Shown here piece after piece: positions 30,580-49,567 of a DNA stretch of 64,000 bases. The position numbers and the translations under genes were made by a program. The DNA is taken from assembly GCA_023665085.1 (NCBI GenBank), contig JAMPEQ010000003.1, positions 124,001 through 188,000 of the forward strand, read 5' to 3'. Position 1 is the first letter of the stretch. Each line of letters begins with the position of its first letter. Under the pieces are notes generated by a model. It made no database searches. It was not told the origin of the DNA and saw only the letters and a list, made by a program, of their open reading frames with translations. The DNA is from Bacteroides sp. (GTDB taxonomy: Bacteria > Bacillota > Clostridia > Oscillospirales > Acutalibacteraceae).

Positions 30580-30589
30580 TTGACGCGTT
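30568..30589. other. Left attachment site of the element
   Basis: Host SASP sequence (ending ACCAACC) meets element sequence (TTGACGCGTT) around a TC at 30578-30579. The element arm is the inverted partner of the arm at the other end. Confidence 0.82.
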
Positions 30590-30610
30590 CAATGACATCT
30601 TAAAATACAC

Positions 30611-32296
30611 CTATATTGCCATTTTATACAACTCATCAGAGCTGTTTTGTCTAATTTGTTCGTTTTCTGCAAGTTTGCCGATAAATCTGTAATATATAGT
30701 GATTTTTTGCTTGTAAGGAACTTTTTTACCAGCAGCCTGATAACCCTCAGGCAATTCCTTTTTGCCGATTTCAATTCTGTCAATGAAAGTTCTGACAATT
30801 TCTTCAGTCAGTTCATCAATATGATTGTACTGTTTTGCAAGGCTGAAAAATTTTTTATAATCATCTCTAACCTTATTTCCTGTTGATTGCTCAGTTTCAA
30901 TTTTGTAAAGCTGTTTTTTCAAGTCATCTGCTTCCTTTGAAAGCTTTGAAACCATATTCGTCAGCATATCGTCAGAGATAGTACCCGATGCATTGTCACC
31001 ATATAGCTTGATTACAATTTCATCAATTGCTTTGAGCCTTTTTTCTATTGCCTTTTTGTTGTCTGTGGCATTTTGATAAACATTGACATTCCCTGATTTT
31101 TCAAGAGCATTTTTTGTAATCTGCTCAATTTCTGCATCACTTAATTTAATCAGTTCGTTAAGTTCTGCCTTGACGATTTCAACCAAATCAGAATATTTAA
31201 TCCTTGCACCATGCTCGCAATGATTTTTGGAACGTTTCGGTATGTTAAGACAACTAAGATACCAATATTTTTCTCGTTCGCCTTTATATACCGAACCTGA
31301 TGAACACATTGCTCCGCCACAGTTTGCACAGAATGTTATACCGTTAAAAATACTTGTTCTGCATCTGTCGTGTTTTTGCCAGTCTTTTGTATTCATTCCC
31401 ATATAAAGCGCAGCCTTATCAAATTGACTTTGCGTTACAAGAGGCTGATGCGTGTTCTCGGTTATGAACCATCTTTCCTCGGGCAATTCAATTTTCTTTT
31501 TTGATTTAAGGCTTGCCTTTTTTGTTTTGCCAAGCAGAGTGTGTCCGAGATAAACCTGATTTTTCAGAATACGCTTGACCGTTATGTGATTCCACTCATC
31601 AACCGCCCTTGCCGCACCTTTTTCTGTGAAGGTATCTCTGTAAAGCACTCTGTATTTCAGCGGAGTGATTACACCTTCATCAGTCAGAATATTTGCGATT
31701 GCGTGGGCAGATTTGCCGTTTTCTGCGAGTTCAAATATTCTTTGTACGATTGGTGCAGTCATAGGATCGGGAATAAGTTTGCTCTCATCCTTGGGATTTT
31801 TCATATACCCGAATGGAGGGCATACACAGTATTCGCCTTTTTTCATTTTTTGGTTGAAAACCTGTTTGATTTTCCTTGAGGTATCACGAAGGTAGACATC
31901 ATTCATCGCAAACTGGAACGGAGCCATAATATTAACCTCGTTTGAATCGAAGTTATCACTGATTGCAATGTAATGGATTCGGTGTTCGGGAAAATAAGTT
32001 TCAGCATAAAAACTTGATTCCGTCATATCCCTTCCGAGTCGTGACAGGTCTTTTGTTATTACCATATTAGCGTGACCTTGTTCGAGATGTGCTATCATTT
32101 TGGTAAAAGCAGGTCTGTTGAAATTAGAACCCGAAAAGCCGTCATCAATAAACTCATTTACGATAGTGATTCCGTTATCCTCGCAATACTGTCTTACAAT
32201 GCTCCTTTGGTTTGTAATACTCGTTGATTCGCCCTCATTTGCCTCCTCAACGGAAAGTCTGTAATATGCGTCTGCAAGCTTCAAATTAGTAAACAT
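30611..32296 (-). CDS. Large serine recombinase (integrase/excisionase)
   Basis: The 561-residue protein has a resolvase catalytic domain (DAYYRLS with catalytic S15, DDGFSGSNFNRPAF, ITKDLSRLGRD), a recombinase domain (FELAENGKSAHAIANIL, VKRILKNQVYLGHTLLGK), a zinc ribbon (FCANCGGAM with a second cysteine pair near 310-330) and a C-terminal coiled-coil segment followed by a basic tail. This is the layout of large serine integrases of Tn4451/TndX and phage type. An AAAGGAG site eight bases before the ATG fixes the start 14 codons inside the open frame. Its position next to the attachment site makes it the enzyme that moves this element. Confidence 0.95.
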   Translation of the reverse strand: MFTNLKLADAYYRLSVEEANEGESTSITNQRSIVRQYCEDNGITIVNEFIDDGFSGSNFNRPAFTKMIAHLEQGHANMVITKDLSRLGRDMTESSFYAETYFPEHRIHYIAISDNFDSNEVNIMAPFQFAMNDVYLRDTSRKIKQVFNQKMKKGEYCVCPPFGYMKNPKDESKLIPDPMTAPIVQRIFELAENGKSAHAIANILTDEGVITPLKYRVLYRDTFTEKGAARAVDEWNHITVKRILKNQVYLGHTLLGKTKKASLKSKKKIELPEERWFITENTHQPLVTQSQFDKAALYMGMNTKDWQKHDRCRTSIFNGITFCANCGGAMCSSGSVYKGEREKYWYLSCLNIPKRSKNHCEHGARIKYSDLVEIVKAELNELIKLSDAEIEQITKNALEKSGNVNVYQNATDNKKAIEKRLKAIDEIVIKLYGDNASGTISDDMLTNMVSKLSKEADDLKKQLYKIETEQSTGNKVRDDYKKFFSLAKQYNHIDELTEEIVRTFIDRIEIGKKELPEGYQAAGKKVPYKQKITIYYRFIGKLAENEQIRQNSSDELYKMAI

Positions 32297-32365
32297 TTTG
32301 TTCTCTCCTTTGAAGCACTGCGCCACAATATCCAACACAAATTATACCATAAAAAGAAGTTAATA

Positions 32366-32581
32366 TCAATTAGAATCAACCTCCTCTGATAAGGAAATAC
32401 TTTCCTCAATGATTGTGTTCAGCTCCCTGCTTTTACTGAAAATTCTGACAATTTCGTAATGGCTGTTGTCGAAGTCGTAAGCAGTGGTTTGCCTGTAGTC
32501 AGTTGAAATGTTTTCCACTTCAGCACCTCCGACATTAGTATTGTCACTGCCATTTGAAATTATGTTTTTGTTTTGTGGCAT
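32366..32581 (-). CDS. Small hypothetical protein upstream of the recombinase
   Basis: The product of about 71 residues starts MPQNKNIISNG, is Asn/Ser/Glu-rich and ends in an acidic helix (SLSEEVDSN). It is transcribed with the recombinase, whose start lies 69 bases downstream. A GTG three codons earlier is an alternative start, and the ribosome binding site is weak. Small proteins in this place in recombinase elements can be recombination directionality factors, but nothing in the sequence proves that here. Confidence 0.5.
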   Translation of the reverse strand: MPQNKNIISNGSDNTNVGGAEVENISTDYRQTTAYDFDNSHYEIVRIFSKSRELNTIIEESISLSEEVDSN

Positions 32582-32628
32582 ATTTACCACATCTTATATA
32601 TTTGTTTTCTATATCACGCTCCTATCCT

Positions 32629-32679
32629 TTAGTTATTTATTGCAGTATATAATGCATTTGTTTTAATTGTTGTTTTCAT
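32629..32679 (-). CDS. Possible 16-residue leader peptide
   Basis: An AAAGGA site eight bases before an ATG opens a reading frame of 16 codons (MKTTIKTNALYTAINN) ending in TAA. It lies just upstream of the small protein and recombinase genes on the same strand. The ribosome binding site is better than that of the next gene, so it could be a leader peptide; it may also be chance. Confidence 0.3.
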   Translation of the reverse strand: MKTTIKTNALYTAINN

Positions 32680-32693
32680 ATAAATCCTTTCTG

Positions 32694-32722
32694 CCTGCCG
32701 ATTGTTCGGCAGGACTTTTTTT
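32694..32722 (+). terminator. Hairpin with T run, element left region
   Basis: CCTGCCGA, a four-base loop and TCGGCAGG are followed by ACTTTTTTT on the + strand. No + strand gene is seen just before it, so it may insulate the recombinase operon or end an unseen RNA. Confidence 0.6.
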
Positions 32723-32846
32723 ACATACTTAACATACTTATTCCACTATTGTAATAATCTTCATACTCCTCATAGCCATCAGATTTCTGACCGTGAGCGA
32801 GCCTTTTCTCAATTTCTTTTACCTCCAAGAATATAGTGGGTTTAGG
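32721..32846 (-). pseudogene. Possible gene-tail remnant
   Basis: A minus-strand frame of 41 codons without a good start codon ends in a protein-like stretch: EVKEIEKRLAHGQKSDGYEE, then YEDYYNSGISMLSM and TAA. The amphipathic, charged composition resembles a real protein C-terminus, yet an in-frame TAG lies right before it. It may be the tail of a decayed gene. No family was recognised. Confidence 0.25.
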
Positions 32847-33424
32847 CTACGCCCAATTCATTGGGTGTCCGGACTTCCGGACGCTCTGCATTGCCCCAGA
32901 CAAAGTCTGGGATTAATACAGAAAATACAATTAAATCATATCATTATCACTTCCTATTTTTTATAAATTCCAACTACAAAACTGAATTGACAAAGCACTG
33001 AATTTTGGAGAAGAAACCCTGCTTTTTTGTTCCAAAATCCCACTACAATCGGTTTTAATTTTTAGTTGGTACACGGTGCTTACAACATAATAAAAGCTCG
33101 TTATATCGTCACACAGGGTTTATAACTTGTTTTATTTATTACCGTTCGCTACGTGACTACCTCGGTCACACATAAAACCATTCAGAATGTAATTATCCTA
33201 TCCCGGAGTTTCACCACGATGTATCTTTGCTCTCATTTAAGGTCATCGCAAATCATATACCATTCTCTCTTTATTCAATTTTTAAGATTAAAATAATTTT
33301 GTAATCACGCTTGTGATTTTAACAAGTGATTGACAGTATGGCAATAGTTTTGTGGAATGTTTATTAGAGCGATGTTAATTGTCAAAAACTAAACAGATTT
33401 ACATTTTCCAAAAAAGGAGCAATT

Positions 33425-34789
33425 ATGAAAAAAGATTATTCAGAATATAAACCTTCGGCAGAGGAGCATTACGATAATTTAAGGAAGAACAATGAGTTTA
33501 TTGAATATAACTATTTTGATAATAAAGTTTCGTATTCAGTTGATAACAAGAAAACATTTTATATCACAGTAGATTACAGCAAAGAAGATGATTTTGCAGG
33601 ATATGTTAATGACGATGATGAAGATGTTATTTTGAGAGATATTGCTCAAAATGATATGGATTTTAATAAGTTAAGTTCAAAATACAAAATTCAAAAATTC
33701 GATTGCAGAGATAAAAAAATACCACTGAACAATGTGCTCAGCGGATGCAGAATTGAAATGTCTGTTGGTGAAGGTATTCTTGATTTTATATATGCGAATT
33801 TTGATCAGCCATTTTACATGGCTATTAATTTCTATTTATCCTTCAGAGATTTACTTGAGGCAGATTTTGGTGATTTGTTTCCGAACAGGAATAAAAAGAA
33901 ACCTCCAAGAAAAATTAAAAGCAAGGAGCATGAAGATGCAATTAAATATTTGAATTATAAACATACATGTTATATGGCAAAAGGAATAAATTACTCATCA
34001 TTGTATTCATCAATCTGTCCACCTGTGTTTATGAATTATGATAAGGACGATTACCAACTTGCATTTAATTTGTATTTCGGATACTTAAAGACACTGCAGA
34101 AAGAATATTTAGAACTCATAGAGTTTTGTTTTGATGAAGAAGTCTGTACGAGTGATTTAGGAAAACTTACACCTGCAGAACGATTTTTTATTTATATAGA
34201 ATTAAAAGAATTACCATTAGAAATTAACAGAAAAGAAGAGTTTTCTTTATCAATTGCAGATGATGTGATAGATATAGAAAATGAGGACTTACAAGAATTA
34301 TCAAATAAATTTGGTATTGAAGAATCTGAATTGATTGACATTATTCAAAATCATAAATCAGTTAGTGTTAGTTACCAAGTCAGCAGCATTCGTGATATGC
34401 TTGAACTTGAATTTACAAAAATGCTTGAGCGGGATATCCGCTTCAGAAAATGCAAACGCTGCGGAAGGTATTTCATTATGAAAGGCAATTACGATACGAA
34501 TTACTGTGACAGAATTGCAGAGGGCGAAACTAAAAACTGCCAGGATATTATGGCAATGGAAAAGTATAAACAGAAAACAGAAGATATTCCGGCTATTAAA
34601 ATCTATAACAAGTATTATAAAAGATATTCTGCAAGAGTAAAAGTTCATACCATACTTGAAGATGATTTCAAGAAGTGGAAGTATCAAGCTGTAGCCAAGC
34701 GTGATGAATGTATAGATGGTAAAATTACCGAAGATGAATCTGTTAAGTGGATGGAGGATTGTTTTCCTAATAGGAATAGAAAACATTGA
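33425..34789 (+). CDS. DUF6076-like protein with zinc-binding motif
   Basis: The 454-residue protein is acidic and cytoplasmic, with a Cys-rich motif at about residues 343-375 (KCKRCGRYF ... NYCDR ... CQDI) that looks like a zinc ribbon, followed by a basic helical C-terminus (KYYKRYSARVKVHTILEDDFKKWKY). This arrangement is seen in proteins annotated DUF6076 in gut Firmicutes elements; that label is from memory of the family and not checked. It has an AAAGGAG site before the ATG. It is the first + strand cargo gene. No function is known. Confidence 0.7.
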   Translation: MKKDYSEYKPSAEEHYDNLRKNNEFIEYNYFDNKVSYSVDNKKTFYITVDYSKEDDFAGYVNDDDEDVILRDIAQNDMDFNKLSSKYKIQKFDCRDKKIPLNNVLSGCRIEMSVGEGILDFIYANFDQPFYMAINFYLSFRDLLEADFGDLFPNRNKKKPPRKIKSKEHEDAIKYLNYKHTCYMAKGINYSSLYSSICPPVFMNYDKDDYQLAFNLYFGYLKTLQKEYLELIEFCFDEEVCTSDLGKLTPAERFFIYIELKELPLEINRKEEFSLSIADDVIDIENEDLQELSNKFGIEESELIDIIQNHKSVSVSYQVSSIRDMLELEFTKMLERDIRFRKCKRCGRYFIMKGNYDTNYCDRIAEGETKNCQDIMAMEKYKQKTEDIPAIKIYNKYYKRYSARVKVHTILEDDFKKWKYQAVAKRDECIDGKITEDESVKWMEDCFPNRNRKH

Positions 34790-34912
34790 TTTAAACGATA
34801 ATTTTGTTATCTGCAGGGTCAAAGAAAAATTTGTGCTATAATAAGATTAAACACTCGCCAAAACCGAATTATTAATAAATATGATTAATATACAAGGTTT
34901 TATTATAATGTG

Positions 34913-34921
34913 TGGTATAAT
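34913..34921 (+). promoter_or_regulatory. Extended -10 promoter element
   Basis: TGGTATAAT is an extended -10 motif placed 32 bases before the start of the next gene. No clear -35 hexamer is present, which extended -10 promoters can do without. Confidence 0.5.
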
Positions 34922-34952
34922 GTTGAAAAACAAAGAAAAGGAGATTATTAAA

Positions 34953-35717
34953 ATGGATAAGTTAATAGAAAAATTGGAAACATTAATTAATAAAGACGAT
35001 AAGGACGAAATTCAAAAAATGTTACTGAAAATAGGTTCTGAATTACTTACAAAATACGAAATAAGGGTGGATAATATAATTATTGAACCTTTACGGGTGG
35101 AGCCTTATTTATTTATACCAAATGTTTTTGAAGATAAGTTTATTCATTCGGAAAATGGTGAATACGGACCACATCAACGAAATCGTTTTGGAAAATTATA
35201 TATACACAAAGGGTTTTCTGGAGTAGATATTGTTTTATCTAATAAAGATGAATATGCATTTTCCTTTTTGATAAAGAACTCACGAATTTTAATTGATAAC
35301 GAGGTAGCATATCCGTTTTTAAAACAATATGGAGTAGCAAAAATTCTTAAAGAACACGGAATTCAAAATAATTACGATGATGTTGTTTTATATAAAAAGG
35401 AATCGGCAAAGGATACTATCGTATTTAGAACTGTAAGAAAAGGATTAAAAATTGCGGAGCGAAAAGGTTTCGATAAACCGAAACAAGAGTATTATAGTAA
35501 GTTAGTGATTTCTTCTTTAATTGAATTAGAAGAGTGCTCTTCTTCACAATATGATTTTGAAACCGGATATGGAAAGCTATGGACAATAGCAAATTATTTA
35601 TATGATCATTCTGAAAAGAACAATGCTGAATGGATACATCAAGTTTTAGGTTACAATGGTTTTAATGAGATAAATAAGTATTTGAGCGAAATTATTAAAG
35701 AAAGAGAAGTCAACTAA
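34953..35717 (+). CDS. Hypothetical protein coupled to the deiminase-like gene
   Basis: The 254-residue protein starts at an ATG with AAGGAG nine bases upstream; the frame is open further back but without a ribosome binding site. It has no membrane segment. The central part has a conserved-looking block, NGEYGPHQRNRFGKLYIH then GFSGVDIVLS and YAFSFLIKNSRI, suggesting a beta-rich catalytic or binding domain, and the C-terminal third is helical. No family was recognised. It is followed one base later by the agmatine-deiminase-family gene, so the two proteins are made together and probably act together. Confidence 0.75.
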   Translation: MDKLIEKLETLINKDDKDEIQKMLLKIGSELLTKYEIRVDNIIIEPLRVEPYLFIPNVFEDKFIHSENGEYGPHQRNRFGKLYIHKGFSGVDIVLSNKDEYAFSFLIKNSRILIDNEVAYPFLKQYGVAKILKEHGIQNNYDDVVLYKKESAKDTIVFRTVRKGLKIAERKGFDKPKQEYYSKLVISSLIELEECSSSQYDFETGYGKLWTIANYLYDHSEKNNAEWIHQVLGYNGFNEINKYLSEIIKEREVN

Positions 35718-35718
35718 T

Positions 35719-36519
35719 ATGCTTTACTTTTCATCACTTTTAAAAACAATCAACGAATACAAACCTGCAGCGGAGCGGCTATTTGCCGCTCTGTCTTGTC
35801 ATAATGTGGATTTTTGCTTGTTAGATGGCACCCGAGATATTTGGTTGCGAGATTTTATGCCGATAAAAACGAAGTCTGGTAAATATGTATCCTTCCGTTA
35901 CGAGCCAAACTATTTGGAAAAATATAAACATTTACAAACTTATTTTAAGCTTGATATCAATGATAAGCTGTCTTTGCCCAATCTAATCTATTCCAATATT
36001 AATCTTGATGGTGGAAATGTAGTATTCTCGCCATCAAAACAAACAGCAATCATGAGTGATCGTATTTTTGAAGAAAACGAAAATAAAAACAAAACAGAGT
36101 TACTGCAAGAGCTTGAACAGCTGTTAGAAACACAGATAATTATTGTTCCGTCCCTGAAAAGTGATATGACAGGTCACGCTGATGGTATGGTGAGATTTGT
36201 AGATGAATGCACTGTGATCGTAAATGATACGCCATATAAAAACGGACTTGAGCAAAGAATAGCAAAAAAGCTCAAAGAATGTGGAATCAATACAATTCCT
36301 TTTTCATATTTCGGCTCATCTAAAAACAATGCAGTGGGATGTTATATCAATTACCTTGAAACAAAAGAAGCTCTATTTTTGCCTGTATTCGATGTTGATA
36401 TGGACAGCAAAGCCATTAATACAGCAAAACATATTTTCAATAAAACAATTGTCCCTGTCAATATCAATGAAATTGCAAAAGATGGTGGAGTACTCAATTG
36501 CATCAGCTGGGAGAATTAA
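35719..36519 (+). CDS. Short agmatine deiminase-family (PAD-like) protein
   Basis: The 266-residue protein carries the guanidine-modifying (peptidyl-arginine deiminase) fold motifs in order: W-L-R-D at 42-45, D-G-G-N at 97-100, G-H-A-D at 152-155 and the closing G-G-V-L-N-C with C261 as the expected nucleophile. D45, H153, D155 and C261 fit the catalytic set, so activity on a guanidino or similar group is likely. Classical agmatine deiminases are about 360 residues; this one is shorter, mostly in the N-terminal and loop regions. Its place in a defence-type element, coupled to an unknown gene, argues against ordinary agmatine catabolism. Confidence 0.85.
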   Translation: MLYFSSLLKTINEYKPAAERLFAALSCHNVDFCLLDGTRDIWLRDFMPIKTKSGKYVSFRYEPNYLEKYKHLQTYFKLDINDKLSLPNLIYSNINLDGGNVVFSPSKQTAIMSDRIFEENENKNKTELLQELEQLLETQIIIVPSLKSDMTGHADGMVRFVDECTVIVNDTPYKNGLEQRIAKKLKECGINTIPFSYFGSSKNNAVGCYINYLETKEALFLPVFDVDMDSKAINTAKHIFNKTIVPVNINEIAKDGGVLNCISWEN

Positions 36520-36555
36520 TGGTTGGTTCAGGTGTAAACAATATATTTTATCGGT

Positions 36556-36579
36556 CTATGTACCATAAATAGTACATAG
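36556..36579. repeat. Inverted repeat before the helicase gene
   Basis: CTATGTAC and GTACATAG are perfect inverted copies separated by eight bases, 37 bases before the UvrD start. It could be an operator or a weak hairpin. Confidence 0.5.
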
Positions 36580-36615
36580 CGTATGAGATAATATAGCCAA
36601 ACTATATTTAATTGG

Positions 36616-39500
36616 GTGGTTGCTATGGATTATATCAATGAGTTGAACGAAAAACAGTATGAGGCAGTTGTAGATACTGAAGGATATGTGCGTGTCATTG
36701 CAGGTGCAGGAAGCGGTAAAACAAAACTGCTTGTCAGTCGTTATGCATATATTGTCAAAGACTATGGAATAGATCCTAAAAATATTTTATGTGTTACATT
36801 CACAAATAAAGCTGCCGCAGAAATGAAAAAGCGCATTCGCAATATCATTGGTGATGGCTATGATACAACGCTTATATGCACTTATCACGGATTTTGTGCA
36901 AGATTGCTCAGAGAAAGCCCTGAAAAATTATTCCTCACCAAAAATTTTCAGATTATTGACACATCACAGCAACGTAATATATTAAGTGAAATTTATCGAA
37001 AATATGAACTTAAGCTTGATCATGCAAGTTTTGGGGATATATTGAAAAAAATCGGAGAGTTTAAGTCTGATATTGCATATGTTTCTAAAATGTGTACATC
37101 TGAAAACTTGCAGATAATAGATGATATAACAGATTTAAACAGCAAAATAATAGAAGAATATTTGCAAAGGCAAAAAGCAATCTATGCACTGGACTTTCAC
37201 GATTTATTAAGTTTTGCTCTTTATCTTCTTACCACTGATGAGAAAATCAGAAATAAGTGGCAGAATCGGCTGAATTACATTCAGGTTGACGAATTTCAGG
37301 ACAGTTCAGCAAGAGAAATGAAACTTGTAGATATTTTATCTGGAAAGCATAAAAATCTTATGATTGTAGGTGATCCTGACCAGAACATTTATGAATGGCG
37401 TGGCTCAAAGGTTGAGCTTTTAGTTGATTTTGATAAGGGGCATATTCCTACCAAAACGATATTTTTAAATCGTAATTATCGTTCAACACCGCAAATACTT
37501 ACTTGCGCTAACACGATTATTGAGAAAAACAAAATCAGATTGGAAAAAGATTTATATACCTTGTCGGAAAACGGACAAAATGTTGTTCACTTTCATTCTA
37601 AAAATGATGACGAGGAAATGAAAAGAATTGTTGGCAATATTAAATTTGTTTGCAAAAACGAAAATTACAGTTATTCGGATATTGCCATTTTATATCGTTC
37701 TTCTTTTCTTTCAAGACTGATAGAAAAGAAATTGGTCGAGAGTAATATTCCTTATGAGATTTATGGCGGTGTAAAGTTTTATCAGCGCATGGAAGTGCTC
37801 GACATCATTGCATATTTAAGATTGATTGCTTTTAATGACGACCTCTCTTTTAAGCGTATCGTCAACAAACCCCGAAGAAAATTCGGACGAGTCAAAATGG
37901 CAAATTTAGAGAATTTGCAGGAAGATGAATTTTATAACACAGATTCTAATAACCAAACTGCTCTCTATGACATTCTTAAAGACTGTTTAGATCGTAATAT
38001 GTTCAAAGGCAGCAGTGTAAATAAGCTTGTTAATTTTGTTGAAAAAATAAGAAACAGTAAAAAGAATATGCGTATCACCGAGCTTGTAAATATGGTGTGC
38101 AATGAATCGGGATACGAGGATTATATCCGAAATCTCGGTGATGAAGAGCGACTTGATAATCTCATGGAATTCAAACGCATTGCAGATGAATTTGAAAAGA
38201 ACTTTGGTGAAGATTTAAGTCTTGAGGAGTTTTTACAGCAAATTTCACTTCAGTCAAATGAAAGTGAAGAAACATCACGAGAGGCAGTTAAACTGATGAC
38301 CATTCATTCTGCAAAAGGACTTGAATTTCCGGTTGTATTTATTGTCGGATTTACAGAGGGAATATTCCGTCATCAAAGACAATTGAAGAAAGAAAAGAGG
38401 CTGGGCTTGAGGAAGAACGCAGGCTTTGCTATGTTGCAATAACCAGAGCAATGAAAAGATTATTTTTAATGGATTCTGAGGGGTATTCTCAAAATGGTAT
38501 AAAAAAACTGCCGTCAAGATTTCTGGATGAAATTGGTGTTCAAAATTATGAGCGAGTAGGAAAAATCTCAAACACCTTAAATGAGGAACAAAAGCAATAT
38601 ATTGCAAAAAGTGATATACAAAATTCAACTGTTCCTGTAAAAAATACAAACGAAGAAGTTGAACATCATATTTTCGGGAAAGGTAAAATCATTGATGTTC
38701 AGGATGATGGGCTTAGTTATCTCGTAAAATTTGATAATCTTGAACAGCCAAGAAGTATTGTCAGCAGATATTTTACTGAGGATTTTCAAAACAGAATTGT
38801 GCAAAGATATACTAATCAAAATCGTGTAGAAGATAATACTCCTGAACAGTCTGAACCACAGCTTGATTTAAAAGAAAAAAACACTATTGAAAGTGACAGT
38901 GGAAACAAAAATAATTTCAATGATTTTATATCCGAAGAAAAATTCAATATTCCTGTTTTAAAAGAACAAAAAACAAATAGTGAAAACAGTAGAGAAATAC
39001 CCGATAATTTGGCATTAAAGAAACAGCTTGCAGACAGTGAAAATTTATGGAAGCGTGACGATGTACCTAAAACAGGCTGGATATGTCAAGGTGTTACAGA
39101 TTTAGGTGAACCTGTCGGAATTTGTCAGATGTGTGGTTATCAGATAATCAGATATGTTCACCATATGTATCATAAAGACTGGGGAAATGTGGATGCTGGA
39201 TGCATCTGTGCAGGTAAGATGGAAGGCAATATTGATGCGGCAAAACAGCGTGAACGTGATATGAAAAATAAATCACAGCGCAAAGAAAAATTTTTGAATC
39301 GCAAGTGGAAAACCTCAAGAAATGGAAACACTTATATAAAAATCAAAGACCATATTGTCGTGTTATATTGCAGAAAATCAGACGGAATTTGGAAGTATTC
39401 AATAGATAATAAATTTTGCGTTGAAATTTTTGAAAGCCGTGAGACTGCAAAAGCAGCAGCTTTCGAAGCACTTGAACAAATTATAAGCAGTTCAAAATGA
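36616..39500 (+). pseudogene. UvrD/PcrA-like helicase with C-terminal zinc module, frameshifted
   Basis: The first frame has all early superfamily 1A helicase motifs: GAGSGKTK (Walker A), LCVTFTNKAA, YIQVDEFQDSS (motif II), GDPDQNIYEWRGS, LNRNYRS and TIHSAKGLEFPVVF (motif V). At 38365-38368 one base is missing: the sequence GGAATATTCCG turns GIFPSSKTIEERKEAG into a wrong frame that stops 75 bases later. The correct frame then goes on through CYVAITRAMKRL (motif VI) to 39500. The C-terminal part has a PcrA-type KGKIIDVQDDGLSYLVKFD domain, a low-complexity linker, and a zinc-type module (GICQMCGYQIIRYVHHMYH ... GCICAGKMEG). Intact length would be about 961 residues. Motifs V and VI end up on separate frames, so the product is probably inactive. 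Confidence 0.88.
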
Positions 39501-39546
39501 TTTTATGAGTAAATTTTAGCCCATAAGCTATTGTATAATACTCTTA

Positions 39547-39565
39547 AAAGTTGTAAAATAACTTT
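39547..39565. promoter_or_regulatory. Possible operator before the WYL gene
   Basis: AAAGTT and AACTTT are inverted copies seven bases apart, between a TATAAT at about 39534 and the ribosome binding site. The place suits autoregulation by the WYL protein; this is inference. Confidence 0.35.
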
Positions 39566-39577
39566 GAGGTGAGCGAT

Positions 39578-40621
39578 ATGGCAAACAAGAAAAACACGAT
39601 TATTAACATTCTTGATATTCTTAAAAGATATACAGATGAAGACCACAGGCTGTCACAAAAGGAAATTGCTGAAATTCTGAAGGATGAATACAATATGACG
39701 ATTGACAGAAAGTCAGTTAAACGCAATTTGTCAAATCTGCTGGAATTTGGTTATCCGATTGAATACAGCGAGTCAATCCGTATGGTGCCGAATAAAAAGA
39801 CAGGCGAGCTTGAGGAAAGCTATATCCTATCTGATTTCTATTTGGACCGTGATTTTTCTGACGCAGAACTCAGGTTGCTCATCGATAGTCTGCTGTTTTC
39901 AAATCATATTCCGTACAGTCAGTGCAAGGAACTGATTGAAAAATTAGAAGGACTTTCAAATAAATACTTTGAATCTAAAGTAAAGCATATCTGCACATTG
40001 CCGCAAAACAGGCCTGCAAATAAACAGTTATTTTACACCATTGATATTCTTGACGAGGCAATCAGCAAGGAACAGCAGGTCTGTTTTCATTATGGTGAAT
40101 ACGGCACAGATAAAAGACTGCATAAACGACAGAACAGCAGCGGCAAGCCAAGGGAATATATCATCAACCCATATCAGATTGTTGCTACAAACGGCAGATA
40201 TTATCTTGTTTGCAATTATGATAAATACGATGATTTGTCAAACTATCGTGTTGACAGAATTATGGATATTAAACTGCTGGACACCCCTGCAAAGCCTAAG
40301 CGTGAAGTCAAAGGTGCAGAGCATGGTTTTGACCTTGCAAAGCATATGAAAGAGCATATCTATATGTTCGCAGGCAAAAGCGTAAGAACAAAGTTTATTG
40401 CAGAAAAATATATCATCGGTGATATTATAGATTATTTCGGTGAGGATGTAATCTTTTCTGATGAAACAGAAGACAAGGTTACAGTAACCGTAACTGTCAA
40501 TGAACGCGATATGCGGTTTTGGGCGTTGCTGTACGCCCTGCAGATTAAAGTTATTGAACCCAAAAGCCTTGTTGATGATATCAAAAGTGATATACAAAAA
40601 GCAGTAGAGCAATATAAGTAA
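39578..40621 (+). CDS. WYL-domain transcriptional regulator
   Basis: The 347-residue protein has an N-terminal winged helix (LSQKEIAEILKDEYNMTIDRKSVKRNLSNLLEFG), a central WYL domain (EYIINPYQIVATNGRYYLVCNYDKYDDLSNYRVDRI) and a C-terminal WCX-type domain. WYL regulators bind nucleic-acid or nucleotide ligands and often control phage defence genes (for example BrxR/CapW-type). The GAGGTGAG site supports this ATG over an upstream GTG. It stands directly before a retron RNA and reverse transcriptase, so it may regulate the retron-nuclease run. Confidence 0.9.
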   Translation: MANKKNTIINILDILKRYTDEDHRLSQKEIAEILKDEYNMTIDRKSVKRNLSNLLEFGYPIEYSESIRMVPNKKTGELEESYILSDFYLDRDFSDAELRLLIDSLLFSNHIPYSQCKELIEKLEGLSNKYFESKVKHICTLPQNRPANKQLFYTIDILDEAISKEQQVCFHYGEYGTDKRLHKRQNSSGKPREYIINPYQIVATNGRYYLVCNYDKYDDLSNYRVDRIMDIKLLDTPAKPKREVKGAEHGFDLAKHMKEHIYMFAGKSVRTKFIAEKYIIGDIIDYFGEDVIFSDETEDKVTVTVTVNERDMRFWALLYALQIKVIEPKSLVDDIKSDIQKAVEQYK

Positions 40622-40622
40622 T

Positions 40623-40801
40623 AAAATACAGCTATGATAGCGATTACCTTAAATGTTTTAAGGTTGGGCAGCGAGTCGCTGTTCATAATATTTTAACTAA
40701 ATACAACAAATAAACAAAAGTTTCGCTGAATAGAAAATTGCTGACACAATTCAGAATTCACCTCAACTTATGTTTTATCGAATGTATCATAGCTGTATTT
40801 T
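40623..40801 (+). ncRNA. Retron non-coding RNA (msr-msd) of the decayed retron
   Basis: The ends form a perfect 17-bp inverted repeat (AAAATACAGCTATGATA at 40623-40639 and its complement at 40785-40801), matching the a1/a2 stem of retrons. Right after a1 comes TAGCGA, the context in which retrons such as Ec86 have their branching guanosine. Then follow an ACCTTAAA/TTTAAGGT hairpin (40646-40664) and a CAGCG-AGT-CGCTG hairpin (40669-40681), both msr-like, and a CTGAAT/ATTCAG hairpin (40726-40754) in the msd position. A reverse transcriptase gene starts 19 bases after a2. The assignment rests on structure and position; no homology search was done. Confidence 0.85.
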
Positions 40802-40819
40802 TTTAGAGGATAATGAATT

Positions 40820-41756
40820 ATGAATGATTTTTCAATTGAAAAAATTTTCGATATGCGTGAAAAAGAAATTTATTATGTTTCTAATAATGTTTCAAAATAC
40901 TATAAAAAATCCTTTATTCCCAAGAAAAACGGGAAAATAAGAACTTTGTATATTCCTGATGAAAAATTGAAATATATGCAAAGAGTGATTCTTAATGAAT
41001 TTTTATTAGAATATAAAATATCAAAAATGTGCAACAGCATATCATAAGGATTCAAATCTTCTATCAAATGCACAGCCTCATCTAAACAAAAAGTTTTTAT
41101 TAAAACTGGATATTAAGGATTTTTTCGGCAGTATCGCTTTTGGTAGAGTGTATAAAATGTTCTCAGCACATTTTCCTGATCAATACGCAAAGCTTTTTGC
41201 TGAATTATGCTGTTACAAAGATAAACTAGTTTAGGGTGCACCAACCTCTCCAGCCATTTCAAATATAATTATGCTGAATTTTGATGATAAAATTGAGAAA
41301 TATTGTTTAAATAACGCTATTTCATATACCAGATATTGTGATGATATAACATTATCATCCAATTCTAACTTAAATGCAGCATATTATAAAATCAAAAAAG
41401 AACTTCAGAAAAACGGATTTGAATTGAACAGCAGAAAAACACATTTTGTTAAATATACTCATCAGCAGAATGTTACCGGCATTGTTGTAAATCAGAAAAT
41501 TCAGGTATCTGCAGATTACAGAAAAACACTAAGGCAAGAACTTTATTATTTGCATAAATTTGGTGCAAGTAATGTCATTTTAAGAAATAACTATATTGAT
41601 TATATAGATGGCGATAGCACACTTGATGAAAAATATGTCAATTATCTTTTAGGCAAAATAAATTATGTGCTGCAAATCAACCCAAATGATGCCACATTTT
41701 TAAAGGAAAAAGAAAAACTTTGTGCTTATAGAAGCAACATGGTTAACGGGAAATAA
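40820..41756 (+). pseudogene. Retron-type reverse transcriptase, decayed
   Basis: An AGAGGA site precedes the ATG. After 71 codons an extra A in the A5 run at 41023-41027 shifts the frame. In the corrected frame the protein reads CATAYHKDSNLLSNAQPH (NAxxH motif), LLKLDIKDFFGSI, then a TAG at 41232-41234 where the family has the Gln of LPQG, followed by GAPTSPAISN, YTRYCDDITLS (YxDD catalytic site), NVTGIVVN (VTG motif) and NYVLQINPNDA. All are retron reverse transcriptase landmarks. Repaired length would be about 310 residues, with no C-terminal extension. With a frameshift and a stop before the catalytic motif it cannot be active. It is a diverged relative of the intact reverse transcriptase 4 kb downstream. 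Confidence 0.9.
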
Positions 41757-41805
41757 TATGAACACACCCCCCTGAAAAATAATAAATGAATTATAGGACA
41801 AATCT

Positions 41806-43284
41806 ATGACACTGAGTAAATCACAATATATAAGAGCACTGCAATGCCCAAAAATGCTTTGGATGGATATGTTTAAGCCTGACAGAGCAGCGGATACAAA
41901 TTTAGATAACATTTTTGAAACAGGTAACGAAGTCGGTGACCTTGCCCGTCAATATTTCGGCAACTACTCTCTTGTTGATTTCAGCTTTAACAAGGAACAA
42001 ATGATTGCCGATACAGAAAAGTTAGTAGATAGCGGTGCAAAGAACATTGCAGAGGCAAGCTTTATGTTTGATAATCTTTTCTGCAGTGTTGATATTCTGC
42101 ACAAAAATCCGTATGGCTGGGATATTATTGAGGTTAAAAGCTCAACACATACCACTGATGTGTATATTAACGATATGGCATTTCAGTATTATGTTTTGCG
42201 TGGTGCAGGGCTGAATATCACAGGCGTTTACAATATGCATATCAACAGTAACTATGTGCGGTACGGCGAGCTTGAACTGGCAAAACTTTTCACGATTGAG
42301 GATTACACTAAAACTGTTTTATCAAGGCAGGGAATGGTTAAATATAATATCGACGGTATCAGAAGATATATGGCAATGGCTGATGATTTTGAGCCCGAAA
42401 AGGATATTGATATTTACTGTGACAGTCCTTATGAATGTGTATATAAAAACTACTGTGGTATGCATTTGCCGACACCATCTGTTTTTGATATTCACGGTCT
42501 TGGCAAAAGGAAAAAGTATGAACTCTATCACAATGATATTGTCAGCTTTGACGATATAATCAACTGTAAACCAAAACTAAGCAAAAAGCAGATGCTGCAG
42601 GTAGAAACGCATTACTATGAATCGGAGCCGATTGTGAATAAAAAGAAAATCAAAGAGTGTATTGATGAATTTACATATCCGCTCTACTTCCTTGATTTTG
42701 AAACCTATCAGCAGGCAGTGCCGAAATATGACGGCATTTCACCATATACGCAAGTGCCTTTTCAGTATTCCCTCCATGCAATACAAAGTAAAGATGCACA
42801 GCTTGAACATTATGAATTTTTAGGTAAAGAGGGAACAGACCCAAGGCGAGCACTTGCCGAACAGCTTTGCAATGACATTCCACTTGATGTCTGCACACTT
42901 GCATACAATATGAAATTTGAAAAAATGGTTATCAAAAATCTGGCTGAAACCTATCCTGATTTATCCGAACACCTGATGAATATTCACGATAGCATCAAGG
43001 ATTTAATGGTGCCGTTTCAGAAGAAATATTATTACAGTGCCGATTTGTATGGCTCATATTCAATCAAATATGTTCTGCCTGCACTCTGTCCTGATGATCC
43101 CGAGCTTAATTATCATAATCTTGATGGAATACATAACGGCAGTGAGGCAATGACAGCCTTTGCAGAGCTTGAATACCATACACCTGAGGAGATTGAAACA
43201 ATCCGTAAAAATCTTCTTGCCTACTGCCGCCTCGACACTCTTGCAATGGTTAAGATTCTTGAGAAGTTGGAAGAAATGTGTTAG
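41806..43284 (+). CDS. DUF2779 protein: Cas4/RecB-like nuclease plus DEDD exonuclease
   Basis: The 492-residue protein has an N-terminal Cas4-like part with C14 and C205, C211, C217 placed to hold an iron-sulfur cluster, the SVDILHKNPYGWDIIEVKSST PD-(D/E)xK core, and a C-terminal DnaQ-like exonuclease with YFLDFET, AYNMKFEK and YCRLDTLAMVKI. This matches DUF2779. The predicted role is single-strand or end-processing nuclease. It lies 49 bases after the decayed reverse transcriptase and 32 bases before the DUF262 gene, so it is probably part of the same run. Whether it was the effector of the decayed retron is inference. Confidence 0.85.
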   Translation: MTLSKSQYIRALQCPKMLWMDMFKPDRAADTNLDNIFETGNEVGDLARQYFGNYSLVDFSFNKEQMIADTEKLVDSGAKNIAEASFMFDNLFCSVDILHKNPYGWDIIEVKSSTHTTDVYINDMAFQYYVLRGAGLNITGVYNMHINSNYVRYGELELAKLFTIEDYTKTVLSRQGMVKYNIDGIRRYMAMADDFEPEKDIDIYCDSPYECVYKNYCGMHLPTPSVFDIHGLGKRKKYELYHNDIVSFDDIINCKPKLSKKQMLQVETHYYESEPIVNKKKIKECIDEFTYPLYFLDFETYQQAVPKYDGISPYTQVPFQYSLHAIQSKDAQLEHYEFLGKEGTDPRRALAEQLCNDIPLDVCTLAYNMKFEKMVIKNLAETYPDLSEHLMNIHDSIKDLMVPFQKKYYYSADLYGSYSIKYVLPALCPDDPELNYHNLDGIHNGSEAMTAFAELEYHTPEEIETIRKNLLAYCRLDTLAMVKILEKLEEMC

Positions 43285-43316
43285 AATAAAACAAAATCAG
43301 TAATGGGAAATTCACT

Positions 43317-45086
43317 ATGAAATTTAACAGCATTAAAACAGAAATTATAAAACTTGAACAACTTTTTTCAAATAAAAAAAGTTATGTTGTCCCTGCTTAT
43401 CAGCGCCCATATGAATGGAGCGATAAGCAAATCGAAAGCTTACTTAACGATATAACAGAATTTTATAATTCAAATAAAGGCACGGAAAATGTATATTTGG
43501 TTAGCACAATGCAACTTACAATTAATGAGAATGGAGAATTGGAAGTTATTGATGGTCATCAAAGAATAACTACATTTTATCTGTTGAAAAAAGCGCTGCA
43601 TAGTACAATTGAATTTAAGTACAGAAATGAAATATATGGATTCAATAAAAGCTTGAATGATTTGGTGAGTGACAAAAACACGTTATACTATAAGAATTTT
43701 GACTATATAAAAAGGTATATCAATAACTTTCTGAACGATGTGAAGACAGATGAAAAATCATTTGTAAAATATCTTGATGAACATATTGTTTTTGCTTCGA
43801 TAACTTTAGCGAATAATTCTCCTATTAAAGATACTCTGCAGGTGTTTAATTCATTGAACACAACAGGATTAAATCTTGATGTTAAGGATATATTCAAAAT
43901 TAAATTTTCTAAATACTTAAATCAAGAAAATGGTTTTGATTGTTTTAATAGAATCAATAAAGCATATTCAGCAGTAATTTCTCCAATAAATAATTTGAAA
44001 GAACCAACTTCATCTGTTTATTGTTTGGAAGAAGATGATTTACTTGACACATATCGTTTTTATCTTATAAGTCAAACAGAAAAAAATTCGTACGCATCGG
44101 ATATGAGAGAAAGCAATGCAGCATTCTTTGAACGATATTTTGAAAATAATGAGAATAAAATAAAACCTGAACTTAATTTAAATACTTTTTGCGATATAGC
44201 TGAATGTATAAACAAAGTCCAAAATTTCATTTATAAAAGAGATCAAGAAACATCTGAAAGTATGAATATTATCTGCTGTTGTGCAAGAAATTTTATTATA
44301 GAAAGTGGTTATTCTAAATTAAAAAATATATATTATTATTTAATATATATACAATATAAAAATAACAAAAAAATTGATAAAGCAGTAGAGACCGCTGATA
44401 AAATAACTGACCTTTTATGGAAATACTGTTCAATCTACAGATTTTTATACTCTAAAATAATAAATCATGTTTTTTTCAAGGTTGGAGAAGCATTATTTAC
44501 AAATCGAAATATTGACAATTTACTTGAAAATGTTTCTTGTATTCTAAAAGATGATATAAGAAATAATAGTTGGAGCAACTTTGATGATTTCAATAAACTC
44601 CTCACTCATGAAGGAAATGTTATAGATTGTAATAAACCCCACTTATTAATAATTCTTAGTTATATAAACGATGCTAATAAAACTAATGTTTTTCAAATAA
44701 AAAAAGATATATTCTATAGGACATACTTTAATTCAGGAAAAAGAAAAAAATGGGATTTGGATATAGAACATATACTTAGCCGTTCATTATATGAAAATAA
44801 AACAGATGTAAATTCTATTGGTAATTTAATGTATCTTTCAAGCAGTATTAATAAAACTCTTGGAGCAAAAACAAAAGAGTTGATTGAAAAAGAAAACAAC
44901 AAGAACAATCGTAGAGAAATAGATTTTCAAAATAAAATTGATGCTTATAATACTGATGCTAAATCGCTTATTTGTGTGAACACCTTTCTTAGCAATTATA
45001 AATATAATATGAAATTTATTGATGATAGAAATGAAAAGAAATGTGAATTTTTAAAAGAGGTTTACAGTGATTTCCTTAGAAAGTAA
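43317..45086 (+). CDS. DUF262-DUF1524 protein (GmrSD/SspE-like type IV restriction candidate)
   Basis: The 589-residue protein has an N-terminal ParB-like DUF262 domain with VPAYQRPYEWSDKQIESLL and a VIDGHQRITTFYLL motif (residues 79-83, DGHQR instead of the usual DGQQR), and a C-terminal HNH-type DUF1524 domain with WDLDIEHIL near residue 483 and IGNLMYLSSSIN. In GmrSD and SspE the first domain hydrolyses nucleotides or senses modified DNA and the second cuts. The His for Gln change in the signature may affect that. It is the last gene of the run that starts with the WYL regulator. Confidence 0.88.
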   Translation: MKFNSIKTEIIKLEQLFSNKKSYVVPAYQRPYEWSDKQIESLLNDITEFYNSNKGTENVYLVSTMQLTINENGELEVIDGHQRITTFYLLKKALHSTIEFKYRNEIYGFNKSLNDLVSDKNTLYYKNFDYIKRYINNFLNDVKTDEKSFVKYLDEHIVFASITLANNSPIKDTLQVFNSLNTTGLNLDVKDIFKIKFSKYLNQENGFDCFNRINKAYSAVISPINNLKEPTSSVYCLEEDDLLDTYRFYLISQTEKNSYASDMRESNAAFFERYFENNENKIKPELNLNTFCDIAECINKVQNFIYKRDQETSESMNIICCCARNFIIESGYSKLKNIYYYLIYIQYKNNKKIDKAVETADKITDLLWKYCSIYRFLYSKIINHVFFKVGEALFTNRNIDNLLENVSCILKDDIRNNSWSNFDDFNKLLTHEGNVIDCNKPHLLIILSYINDANKTNVFQIKKDIFYRTYFNSGKRKKWDLDIEHILSRSLYENKTDVNSIGNLMYLSSSINKTLGAKTKELIEKENNKNNRREIDFQNKIDAYNTDAKSLICVNTFLSNYKYNMKFIDDRNEKKCEFLKEVYSDFLRK

Positions 45087-45091
45087 AATTT

Positions 45092-45208
45092 ATGACTTAT
45101 GTAATATCAGATCTGCATGGTTATCCGATTGAAAAAGTCTTGATTTCAAAGAATTTCATAATTAAATTTTTGCCGCATCGTATGATGTGGCTTTTTTGTG
45201 CCACCTAG
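45092..45208 (+). pseudogene. Remnant of a metallophosphoesterase gene
   Basis: A 38-codon frame begins MTYVISDLHGYPIEK, which is the N-terminus of calcineurin-like phosphoesterases with the D-x-H-G metal motif. After about 15 codons the similarity stops and a terminator hairpin lies within the frame. It is a short fossil next to the retron RNA. Confidence 0.55.
45172..45198 (+). terminator. Terminator after the DUF262 gene
   Basis: GCCGCATC and GATGTGGC form an 8-bp stem (one G-U) with a 4-base loop and a TTTTTT tail. It separates the WYL-DUF262 run from the second retron. Confidence 0.8.
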
Positions 45209-45236
45209 TGTGATATAGTGTAATCAAAGGAGATAA

Positions 45237-45378
45237 GTCGGCGGTAGCAGATTTAAGTAATTTGTAGTTAATTGCTTAAGGCAGGAGCGAGTCGCTGCTG
45301 CTAAATAAAAATAATTATATTTGCGACTCCATTGAAATTTCGTTGAAATTTCACAGCATAACATTAAGTGCCGCCGAC
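45237..45378 (+). ncRNA. Retron non-coding RNA (msr-msd) of the intact retron
   Basis: GTCGGCGGTA (45237-45246) and TGCCGCCGAC (45369-45378) pair as the a1/a2 stem. TAGC follows a1, the expected branch-G context. Next come TTTAAGTAATT/AATTGCTTAAG (45252-45280), then a GCAGGAGCG-AGT-CGCTGCTGC hairpin (45281-45301) whose AGCGAGTCGCT core is identical to the RNA of the decayed retron. TGAAATTTC-GTT-GAAATTTCA (45333-45353) is a perfect hairpin in the msd place. The reverse transcriptase start lies just behind a2. Length, order and shared core all fit a retron RNA. Confidence 0.88.
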
Positions 45379-45388
45379 ACCTTTCATT

Positions 45389-46966
45389 ATGATTAATAAC
45401 AAAGATGAATTTTCACTTGATGCAAATGAAATAGGCTTTATTGATGAAATTGGTGGAGTTAAAGAATTGTTATCTTTTATTAATTTAAAGAAATCCAATT
45501 TTGACTCTCTGTATCAACTCATATCAATTTTATTCCCGAAAATAAAAGACATTCATGAAAAAGAATATGAAATAAATGTGCTGTATTATTTAACACACAA
45601 TATAAATGAAGCTTACCAAACTGCATATGTAACCAAGTCTAACGGCAAAAAAAGAGAGATAAACAAACCCGATTTACTTATAAAAAAATATCAAAAAGCC
45701 ATATATAAAAACATATTAGCCAAAATTCCTGTATCGACTTATGCAACAGCATATCAAAAAGGTTCTTCTTTAAGATATTCCACTGCTGTTCATACAGGCA
45801 AGCCTATGATTTTAAAACTTGATATAAAAAATTTTTTCGGTAGCATTCTATACAAATTCGTGCAGGCAATGTTTATAAATCAAGGCTATGATTATTTTAT
45901 TTCAACAACGCTTGCAACACTGTGCTGTTATAAAGGACGGCTGCCACAGGGTGCATCAACTTCACCTGCTATTTCAAATATTATAATGCGTGGATTTGAT
46001 GAAATAGTTGCAGAATTTTGCAGAGAAAGAAATATTGTATACACACGATACAGTGATGATATGACCTTTTCAGGTGAATTTGATAAGGCTGAAATTATAG
46101 ACTTTGTTGAAATCAATCTGAACAAATCAGGTTTTAGATTAAATAAAAAGAAAACCAAGCTGATTAAGCAAGGTCAAAGGCAAACTGTAACAGGTGTTGT
46201 TGTAAATGAAAAACAGCAATTGCCTAAAGGTTATAGAAAAAAGATCAGGCAGGAGGTATATTACTGTCAAAAGTATTCTGTTAAATCTCATATACTGCAT
46301 GCAAATCTAACTGAGTATATTCGTCCGAATGGTGATGTTTATTACAAGGAGTATCTGCTGAATTTATATGGCAGAATAAACTATGCTCTGCAGATTAATC
46401 CGAGTGATACTGAAATGCTTAATTACAGTGTCAATGTAAAATCTGCAATGTGTCAGCTTGATATCGTTAAACGAAAAATTAATGATGAAATATTTAATTT
46501 AGATGCAGAATTTTATCAAAACGAAAATAGAGAAGATAATGACATCTATTCTTATTTGATACAATTAGGTTATACGAATGAAGAAATTGATTACAGTGGT
46601 ATAGCACAGCAACCGGAATATAAATATTATCCGGTGTACGATGATAAAGCTAATATCATAGGGTTGCTGTATTTTAATTGTAATATAATCAATAAAAATT
46701 ATGATACATTCTTCGGCTTCAGTTTTGATAAAAGTGTAAAGTGTATTATATTAACTTTGGAAAAAGAATTTGTATTTAGAGCTAAAAAGATCGGGCTGAA
46801 AAATGTTGTATCATTTTTGGCTGAGCCAAGCAATTTTGTTCTCACGCAAAGCAAACTTGATTTTATCAGGGCGTACGGAAACACAGTTGTTCTTCATGGA
46901 GAGAAGGGTGAGATATTTGAGCGAATCAGACAAATTTTAACAAGCAGAAATGTAATAGTATTATAA
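45389..46966 (+). CDS. Retron reverse transcriptase with C-terminal extension
   Basis: The 525-residue protein has the reverse transcriptase core with DIKNFFGSI (145-152), LPQGASTSPAISN (185-197), the catalytic YTRYSDDMTFSG (Y221-S-D-D224) and the retron VTG motif (267-269); the NAxxH motif reads STAVH (131-135). Retron enzymes usually end near residue 320-340. Here about 180 further residues follow, beginning with a charged helix (KRKINDEIFNLDAEF) and continuing as an alternating strand-helix domain (KYYPVYDDKANIIGLLYFNC ... CIILTLEKEFVFRAKKIGLKNVV ... IRQILTSRNVIVL). That part is not recognised and may be a fused effector. A GTG seven codons upstream overlaps the a2 repeat and was not chosen. 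No other effector gene is co-oriented downstream. Confidence 0.9.
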   Translation: MINNKDEFSLDANEIGFIDEIGGVKELLSFINLKKSNFDSLYQLISILFPKIKDIHEKEYEINVLYYLTHNINEAYQTAYVTKSNGKKREINKPDLLIKKYQKAIYKNILAKIPVSTYATAYQKGSSLRYSTAVHTGKPMILKLDIKNFFGSILYKFVQAMFINQGYDYFISTTLATLCCYKGRLPQGASTSPAISNIIMRGFDEIVAEFCRERNIVYTRYSDDMTFSGEFDKAEIIDFVEINLNKSGFRLNKKKTKLIKQGQRQTVTGVVVNEKQQLPKGYRKKIRQEVYYCQKYSVKSHILHANLTEYIRPNGDVYYKEYLLNLYGRINYALQINPSDTEMLNYSVNVKSAMCQLDIVKRKINDEIFNLDAEFYQNENREDNDIYSYLIQLGYTNEEIDYSGIAQQPEYKYYPVYDDKANIIGLLYFNCNIINKNYDTFFGFSFDKSVKCIILTLEKEFVFRAKKIGLKNVVSFLAEPSNFVLTQSKLDFIRAYGNTVVLHGEKGEIFERIRQILTSRNVIVL

Positions 46967-46968
46967 GT

Positions 46969-47000
46969 AAGCATCGCATCAAATGAATGGTGCGATGCTT
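46969..47000 (+). terminator. Hairpin between convergent genes
   Basis: AAGCATCGCA and TGCGATGCTT form a perfect 10-bp stem with a 12-base loop and a GTTTAGTTT tail, between the reverse transcriptase and the first phosphatase-like gene. Termination is likely on the + strand. Confidence 0.65.
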
Positions 47001-47007
47001 GTTTAGT

Positions 47008-47448
47008 TTATTCAGTTTTAAAGGCATTTAGTGTTTTACGATAGCAAAGCATATTGGGGAAATACATTTTGCTATTGAGTATAATTGAATTATCTTGCCC
47101 CAAGCCTTCAAGTATACCTGCTGCAACGCCTGCACTGCGGGACATTCCCATATCACAATGCACCCATATTGTATCAACTCTGTCTTTCCATTTCAGTACA
47201 AAATCTCTGATTTTAACAGCGTCATCATCAGTCATTGCAGGATATCCTTTAAAAATATCCTGCGTTTCGGTGCTTACATCATAAAAGGATAGATAAAGAA
47301 TATCTTTAATCGTGCTGTTGCCTGAATTAAATTCAGCCTTTTCATCACCGGGTGTGCGGATAGAAATAATTACTTTATCATCTGAGCAATCAGTATAACT
47401 TAACCGTTTAGCTTTAGATTTATTAAGGATAACAAATTTCATACTCAT
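47008..47448 (-). CDS. Protein tyrosine/dual-specificity phosphatase-like protein 1
   Basis: The 146-residue protein has the phosphatase P-loop HCDMGMSRSAG with C98 and R104 (CX5R), preceded by a strand (VDTIWV) and followed by a helix, as in small dual-specificity phosphatases. An Asp-rich loop around YDVSTETQD could give the general acid. The first part of the gene overlaps the end of the DnaB-like gene by 26 bases. Two in-frame ATGs are close together and neither has a strong ribosome binding site, so coupling to the upstream gene is likely. A second CX5R protein is two genes upstream. Confidence 0.8.
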   Translation of the reverse strand: MSMKFVILNKSKAKRLSYTDCSDDKVIISIRTPGDEKAEFNSGNSTIKDILYLSFYDVSTETQDIFKGYPAMTDDDAVKIRDFVLKWKDRVDTIWVHCDMGMSRSAGVAAGILEGLGQDNSIILNSKMYFPNMLCYRKTLNAFKTE

Positions 47449-48186
47449 CAATAATTAAATTATTTTTGTCTGTAAAACGAATTGCTTCACGATCAAATTC
47501 CAATTCAATAGTACCTATATCTCCATGACAGTTTTTTGCAATAATCAATTCTGTATTATTAATATCATCTTCGTCAATTGAATCAAAATAATACGAATCC
47601 CTATAAAGAAACATAATTATATTTGCATCTTGTATTAAACTATATAAACCAAAAAAGATGAAAGTGTAGGTCGGTGTTTATCCACATCAACCTGCCTTGG
47701 TAAGCTTGTAGTGCAGATAACAGGAATATTAAGTTCTTTTACCATTCTTTTAAGATCTCTTGAAATGTCATGGCCTTCCTGCATTCTGGCAGTCCTTTTT
47801 ATTTCCGGTGTAATCAATCCAAAATCATCTATAATTACACAATCTACATATTTTAAATTTACTACTTTTTGTTTCATTTCTGATACTTTTATTACGGGTT
47901 GGTCTTCAATATAAATTTCTATATCAGAATTAATTGTTGAGAATTTTTTTGCAAGATGTTCAGCAGATAAGTCTAAACTGAAAAAAACACATTTCTTTCC
48001 TGTTGCTGCTATGTTTTCTGCAAGATTAGCTGCAAAGGTTGTTTTGCCCATTGCAGGTCTGGCACCAATGTAAATCAAATCCGATTTTCTAAAACCTTGT
48101 GTAAGCTTATCAAGCTGCTTAAATCCTGTTGAAATGGATTCTTTCTCTTCCGTTTTGTTTTCAATAATATCTATAAGTTTTTTCAT
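47423..48186 (-). pseudogene. DnaB-like ATPase (RecA fold), frameshifted
   Basis: The first 180 codons match the ATPase domain of replicative helicase DnaB: STGFKQLDKLTQGFRKSDL, Walker A GARPAMGKTT (41-50), Walker B VDCVIIDD (114-121) and TTSLPRQVDVDKHRPTLS. The frame then ends because the T6 run (plus-strand A6 at 47651-47656) is one base short. In the other frame the protein goes on as GLYSLIQDANIIMFLYRDSYYFDSI and a typical DnaB C-terminus (ELIIAKNCHGDIGTIELEF). The N-terminal DnaB domain is absent, so even repaired (about 254 residues) it is a stand-alone RecA-fold ATPase and not a normal helicase. Confidence 0.85.
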
Positions 48187-48198
48187 TTAATTCTCCTT

Positions 48199-49544: not shown

Positions 49545-49567
49545 AAATTTAAATATTTGTTTAAAAA

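Follow-up and report, generated by a model that had tools for sequence, protein, structure and literature searches.

Integrated elements that possess an origin of transfer (oriT) and lack a relaxase are an already described kind, as is a route to them by gene loss; the available excerpts of that work name them iOriTs and foresee an iMOB helper (PMC11389934). Relaxases acting in trans are also a feature of the pWBG749-type oriT plasmids of Staphylococcus aureus, for which the accessible part of the source links specificity both with an inverted repeat and with a protein of the ribbon-helix-helix type (PMC4652767), and of relaxase-free mobile genomic islands with an SXT-type oriT, which are presented in the excerpted account as chromosomal, integrase-bearing and reliant on a borrowed relaxase (PMC5704250). 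The nic sites listed in the available portion of a further source include those of Tn1549 (RYGCTTG|C) and pRJ6 (TGCTTG|CCA) (PMC7755788).

The stretch of DNA analysed here (the window, 64,000 nucleotides) is best read as holding a recently made oriT-only integrated element of the iOriT kind. Like the iOriTs of the excerpted description, the window element is integrated and has a recombinase and a candidate oriT without a relaxase (PMC11389934); unlike them, its deletion scar and presumed helper lie within one genome, and its mobilisation is a prediction. With the pWBG749-type plasmids, as far as the available text describes them, it shares an inverted repeat and a relaxase in trans, the latter predicted here (PMC4652767), whereas those plasmids have a different oriT family and are experimentally tested. 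The SXT-type islands resemble it as chromosomal elements with an integrase and a borrowed relaxase (again predicted here), but belong to the Gammaproteobacteria and use a MobH relaxase and a tyrosine integrase in the same excerpts (PMC5704250). A further comparison is with the oriTs of Tn1549 and of MOBP plasmids such as pRJ6: judged by the portion of the source at hand, the core likewise ends in TTG|C (PMC7755788), and relatives of the block accompany a MobP-type relaxase with a MobC/NikA-like partner. By contrast, the subgroup of the window has an extra A, the window itself has no mob genes, and no similarity to plasmid DNA was found in the plasmid collection. At this locus the gene-loss route can be read from the sequence, a mobilisable element having apparently become dependent on another.

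A preliminary description of this DNA had reported three perfect hairpins at 32851-32911, judged them not to be terminators, and proposed that they form a structured RNA, mark an origin of replication or transfer, or serve as an array bound by a recombinase or regulator. All three hairpins are located there, and hairpin 3 has no T run after it; perfect pairing holds for the second and third, while GCCCAA/TTGGGT contains one G-T and is perfect only in its inner form. The elements of the region are as follows.

32836..32911, + strand: candidate oriT block with three hairpins and a nic-like core, the end-to-end match of covariance model R2
32843-32847 with 32851-32855, + strand: conserved hairpin 1 (CGGGC/GCCCG in the family), weakened here to 4 of 5 pairs
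32852-32857 with 32860-32865, + strand: hairpin 1 of the preliminary description, CCCAAT/ATTGGG, which excludes conserved hairpin 1
32865..32884, + strand: full hairpin 2, nine pairs including one G-T, an inverted repeat next to the nic-like core on its 5' side
32867-32872 with 32877-32882, + strand: hairpin 2 as first described, GTCCGG/CCGGAC
32883..32897, + strand: nic-like core GCTCTGCATTGCCCC, with the predicted nick between 32893 and 32894
32895-32901 with 32905-32911, + strand: hairpin 3, CCCAGAC/GTCTGGG, which shows covariation and follows the predicted nick immediately on its 3' side

The hairpin cluster is not a product of chance. Defined as three hairpins within 65 nt whose arms measure 6 or more and each contain no fewer than 3 G/C, and whose loops measure 2-6, it is unique in the 64 kb and did not arise in any of 40 dinucleotide shuffles made of the full sequence. 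The fold of 32815-32945 has a z of -4.5 on the + strand and -3.6 on the - strand, with none of 200 shuffles equally stable on either strand, and R2 matches the block at 54.2 bits (E 3.9e-10). In relatives, the first hairpin that is conserved lies a little upstream of the one first described, with which it shares an arm; the latter can be drawn, weakly, only in the window's own subgroup, and the conserved form is also weakened in the copy that this genome carries on contig C4.

That second copy, 85% identical to the block, immediately precedes a mobilisation operon, a position in which an oriT is usually found. Among 80 genomes of the genus, six, the window's own included, gave DNA matches to the block; one of these (L010) was rejected as chance, with no block present at the locus. 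In the copies from G076, G065, G008 and G058, mobC adjoins the block and the relaxase gene stands behind mobC. Relaxase matches occurred in 29 of 300 family genomes, and the block was seen upstream of the relaxase in many, not all, of the 30 loci inspected. An independent DNA pattern (GCTCTGC, 0-1 N, TTGCCCC, N, GAC, 1-5 N, GTC, N, GGG) found 42 stretches among some 85,000 species genomes, most titled Clostridia, Oscillospiraceae or Ruminococcus and one Prevotella, and in 40 of them mobC and/or the relaxase gene stands immediately to the left; of the other two, one ends at a contig end after 8 nt. The second (L109, JAFLUM010000018.1, oriT at 6230-6258) has neither gene in the 824 nt to its left, and may be a case of mob genes hidden by a contig end or another solitary copy. 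Matches to a covariance model in 398 family genomes had mobC and/or a relaxase gene within 1.5 kb in 18 of 24 places. The pattern was found 0 times in viral contigs, the plasmid collection held no DNA match to the block of the window or of L014 and only relaxase matches below 60% identity, and the core strings recovered a single, unrelated zebrafish paper from open-licence PMC text. On family evidence we are nearly certain that the 61-base block is the oriT of a MobC/MobP mobilisation module, the candidate of the preliminary description that the evidence favours; the module is best explained as one of integrative mobilisable elements in gut bacteria of the Oscillospiraceae type. The recurrence beside serine recombinases for which the preliminary description had suggested looking is seen in the C4, G076, G065 and G008 elements, but the constant neighbour is mobC with the relaxase gene, and some copies accompany tyrosine recombinases instead.

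Hairpins 2 and 3 are separated by an unpaired, nic-like core that hardly varies, and related blocks combine a GCTCTGC(A)TTGCC core with three compensating hairpins. The family core GCTCTGCTTGCCCC (CTGCTTG|C) agrees with the listed RYGCTTG|C sites save for the purine of the Tn1549 consensus, and the window core is one base longer than these sites through an extra A (GCATTG) that it has in common with C4, L011, L012 and L013. This subdivision is mirrored in the enzymes: relaxases at extra-A pattern loci (n=3) are 83.6-88.3% identical to that of C4, against at most 59.3% at GCTTG loci with a relaxase match (n=36; three further loci had no match). Core motif and calibrated model together provide a sequence handle by which oriTs can be recognised in a large group of mobile elements from the gut.

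Comparison with C4 points to what happened to the mobilisation genes of the window. To the left of the block, 32748-32820 matches C4 about 1.6 kb further away, and between the two matched C4 pieces lie intact genes for a 114-aa MobC/NikA-like protein and a 451-aa MobA/VirD2-type relaxase (Pfam PF03432, PF21983 and PF05713). Relative to C4, the window lacks a segment of 1582 bp (~1.58 kb) bounded by two copies of a 9-base repeat, and the two also differ in length, by a smaller amount, in the interval that separates the block from the start of mobC. The junction is marked by two features.

32812..32820, no strand assigned: 9-mer ATTTCTTTT at the deletion junction, with counterparts on C4 at L004 5999 and 7581, 1582 bp apart
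32721..32828, - strand: apparent fusion scar of 35 codons, joining the first codons of mobC in frame with the relaxase tail

The window has no relaxase match, those of its own genome falling on C4 and C11 only, and we regard loss of mobC and the relaxase gene by deletion as very probable. The 23 relaxase-tail codons shared with C4 differ by five synonymous and no amino-acid changes, so the deletion is probably recent, and selection probably acted on the relaxase until not long ago. The segment from hairpin 2 through the core to hairpin 3 is identical to C4 at 48 of 49 bases, with the same hairpin 2 arms, extra A and hairpin 3, whereas the hairpin 1 part agrees at 17 of 27 and the right flank at 40/49, 80/100 and 119/140 (core versus right flank, Fisher p 0.002).

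We consider it likely that the block is a MobC/MobP module oriT left behind when its mobC and relaxase genes were deleted; it would be served in trans by the sister element. Since the enzyme genes normally beside the oriT are lost, the window element would probably depend on its sister for movement. A MobC-type protein would bind hairpin 2, and a MobP relaxase would nick the + strand after TGCATTG and before the CCCC of hairpin 3, the nicked strand leading into the right side of the element. The relaxase would most likely come from the C4 element, a putative helper that carries the same oriT subtype with intact mob genes (the genome's other relaxases are two related ones on C11). Conjugation-type loci on C11 or C30 would supply the coupling protein and the mating channel; both contigs have VirD4-type matches and AAA_10 (VirB4-type) matches above cut-off. 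In both elements a gene for a DUF6076 protein (window 33425-34789; L004 8341-9237) lies on the side of the oriT opposite to the mob genes, the side expected to enter the recipient first. Because scar, intact sister and matching oriT occur in one genome, the prediction of transfer in trans is directly testable.

Whether the window element is still mobilisable in trans appears evenly poised. The block may be a dead relic, a former oriT out of use since the mob deletion and merely not yet eroded, a reading that we take seriously while placing it somewhat below an even chance. The deletion looks recent, so an intact sequence is no proof of present use; hairpin 1 has drifted to its 17 of 27 bases; and a solitary copy in G252 (L076, see below) is already without hairpin 3. 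Against this stand the intact hairpins 2 and 3 and core of the window block, and the presence in the same genome of an element with a matching relaxase.

Solitary copies occur elsewhere as well. The search of 398 family genomes, made with model R1, whose structure string was one column off (R2 being the corrected model), returned its 24 places from 15 genomes; six had no mobC or relaxase gene within 1.5 kb, namely the window, L076, L079, L080, L081 and a doubtful L072. In G203, L080 and L081 nearly equal a mob-bearing copy of the same genome (L078) in hairpin 2 and core, and L076, with its broken hairpin 3, resembles L066 (both G252), while for L079 (G294) no mob-bearing copy of the same subtype was among the R1 matches. 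At L079, L080 and L081 a gene for a tyrosine recombinase of 405 aa, truncated in the case of L081, stands ~0.2 kb away, and the elements concerned carry 45-bp repeats that correspond to the end of a tRNA-Trp gene. In L124 4135-17165 (G203 C11) and L126 54-9896 (G294 C137), solitary copies at this distance from a tyrosine-recombinase gene, with no mob genes nearby, apparently sit in tandem units of ~6.5 kb bounded by such repeats, and these look like oriT-plus-integrase elements without relaxase. A recurrent class of relaxase-free integrated elements with this oriT in Oscillospiraceae-type gut bacteria, arising by deletion from ordinary mobilisable elements (the window) or existing as compact units of oriT and tyrosine integrase at tRNA-Trp (G203, G294), and using the relaxosome of a resident element of the same hairpin 2 subtype, is a tentative and rather unlikely generalisation.

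The preliminary description had let its reading hinge on conservation of the pairings in related elements, and compensating changes were indeed found there. Pairing statistics come from an alignment to R2 of 58 matches (55 distinct), two of them weak additional hits within L106 and L109; an alignment, A2, in which the extra A shifts hairpin 3 out of register was set aside. Of the 42 pattern loci 27 were aligned, four identical to L011-L014 and 11 judged by eye to be near-duplicates or truncated being left out. In this alignment, whose rows are fitted to the model and seven of which had built it, paired cells amount to 93.6% against 81.7% in shuffles (0/500 as high) and 44.4% in the best slid version, the covariation score is 0.286 against 0.094 (0/500 shuffles reach 0.286), and 16 of 21 pairs show changes on both sides. 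The pattern itself imposes part of hairpin 3 on the pattern loci; in the 29 rows not obtained from it, paired cells number 136/140, 207/239 and 173/178 for hairpins 1 to 3. Hairpin 2 has 41 G-T and 8 A-C cells, an excess that gives a soft hint, since the alignment method favours G-T, of folding in the + strand. To the right of the block, the conserved noncoding stretch 32912-33290 is 78-80% identical to sequence beside the oriTs of L004, L012 and, over its first 230 bp, L011; it gave no useful covariation signal (1 of 42 pairs).

Compensatory pairing, the G-T excess in hairpin 2 and the fold z of -4.5 would also fit a structured RNA, such as the leader of the mobC operon or DUF6076 gene or a small RNA belonging to one of them, but single-stranded oriT DNA folds too and gives the same signs. 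The nearly invariant, nic-like nature of the unpaired core and the mobilisation genes that partner the block throughout also speak for a transfer origin, and no Rfam family applies (0 matches at gathering score in the window, where ARAGORN likewise named nothing), making an RNA highly unlikely.

We find it extremely improbable that the block is instead the replication origin of an excised circle. Rolling-circle origins also use nicked hairpins, and an oriT may serve both purposes after excision, but the constant neighbour of the block is a mobC-relaxase pair and no Rep gene.

The transfer origin sits within an integrated element whose limits are given by four empty-site relatives.

30580..53511 (approximate ends), no strand assigned: whole integrated element, ~22.9 kb
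30437-30580 and 53511-53738: flanks holding the split spore-protein gene
30611..32338, - strand: large serine recombinase (Resolvase, Recombinase, DUF4368)

In a comparison of 12 loci, the window's own included, four genus relatives (L048, L051, L055 and L056) are continuous across 30580/53511, and the interrupted gene, an alpha/beta small acid-soluble spore protein by Pfam, is whole in all four. Five genus relatives of the recombinase (58-74% identity) have no oriT or mob match in their loci, up to ~1.5 kb on each side, so the recombinase and the oriT segment seem to be of different lineages. We give almost no credence to an array bound by the serine recombinase or some other regulator: dimers do bind inverted repeats and several copies lie near serine recombinases, but the nearest relatives of the window recombinase are without such a block within 1.5 kb, tyrosine recombinases take its place beside some copies, and the attachment sites lie elsewhere, at ~30580 and 53511. 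The element also holds defence-like cargo by PADLOC profiles (window 36616-38442, 41271-41756, 43317-45086, 45368-46966 and 50402-51628), comprising a UvrD/GajB-like helicase, two retron-type reverse transcriptases, one of them a 161 aa fragment, a DUF262/HEC-06-like protein and a PDC-S01-like ATPase.
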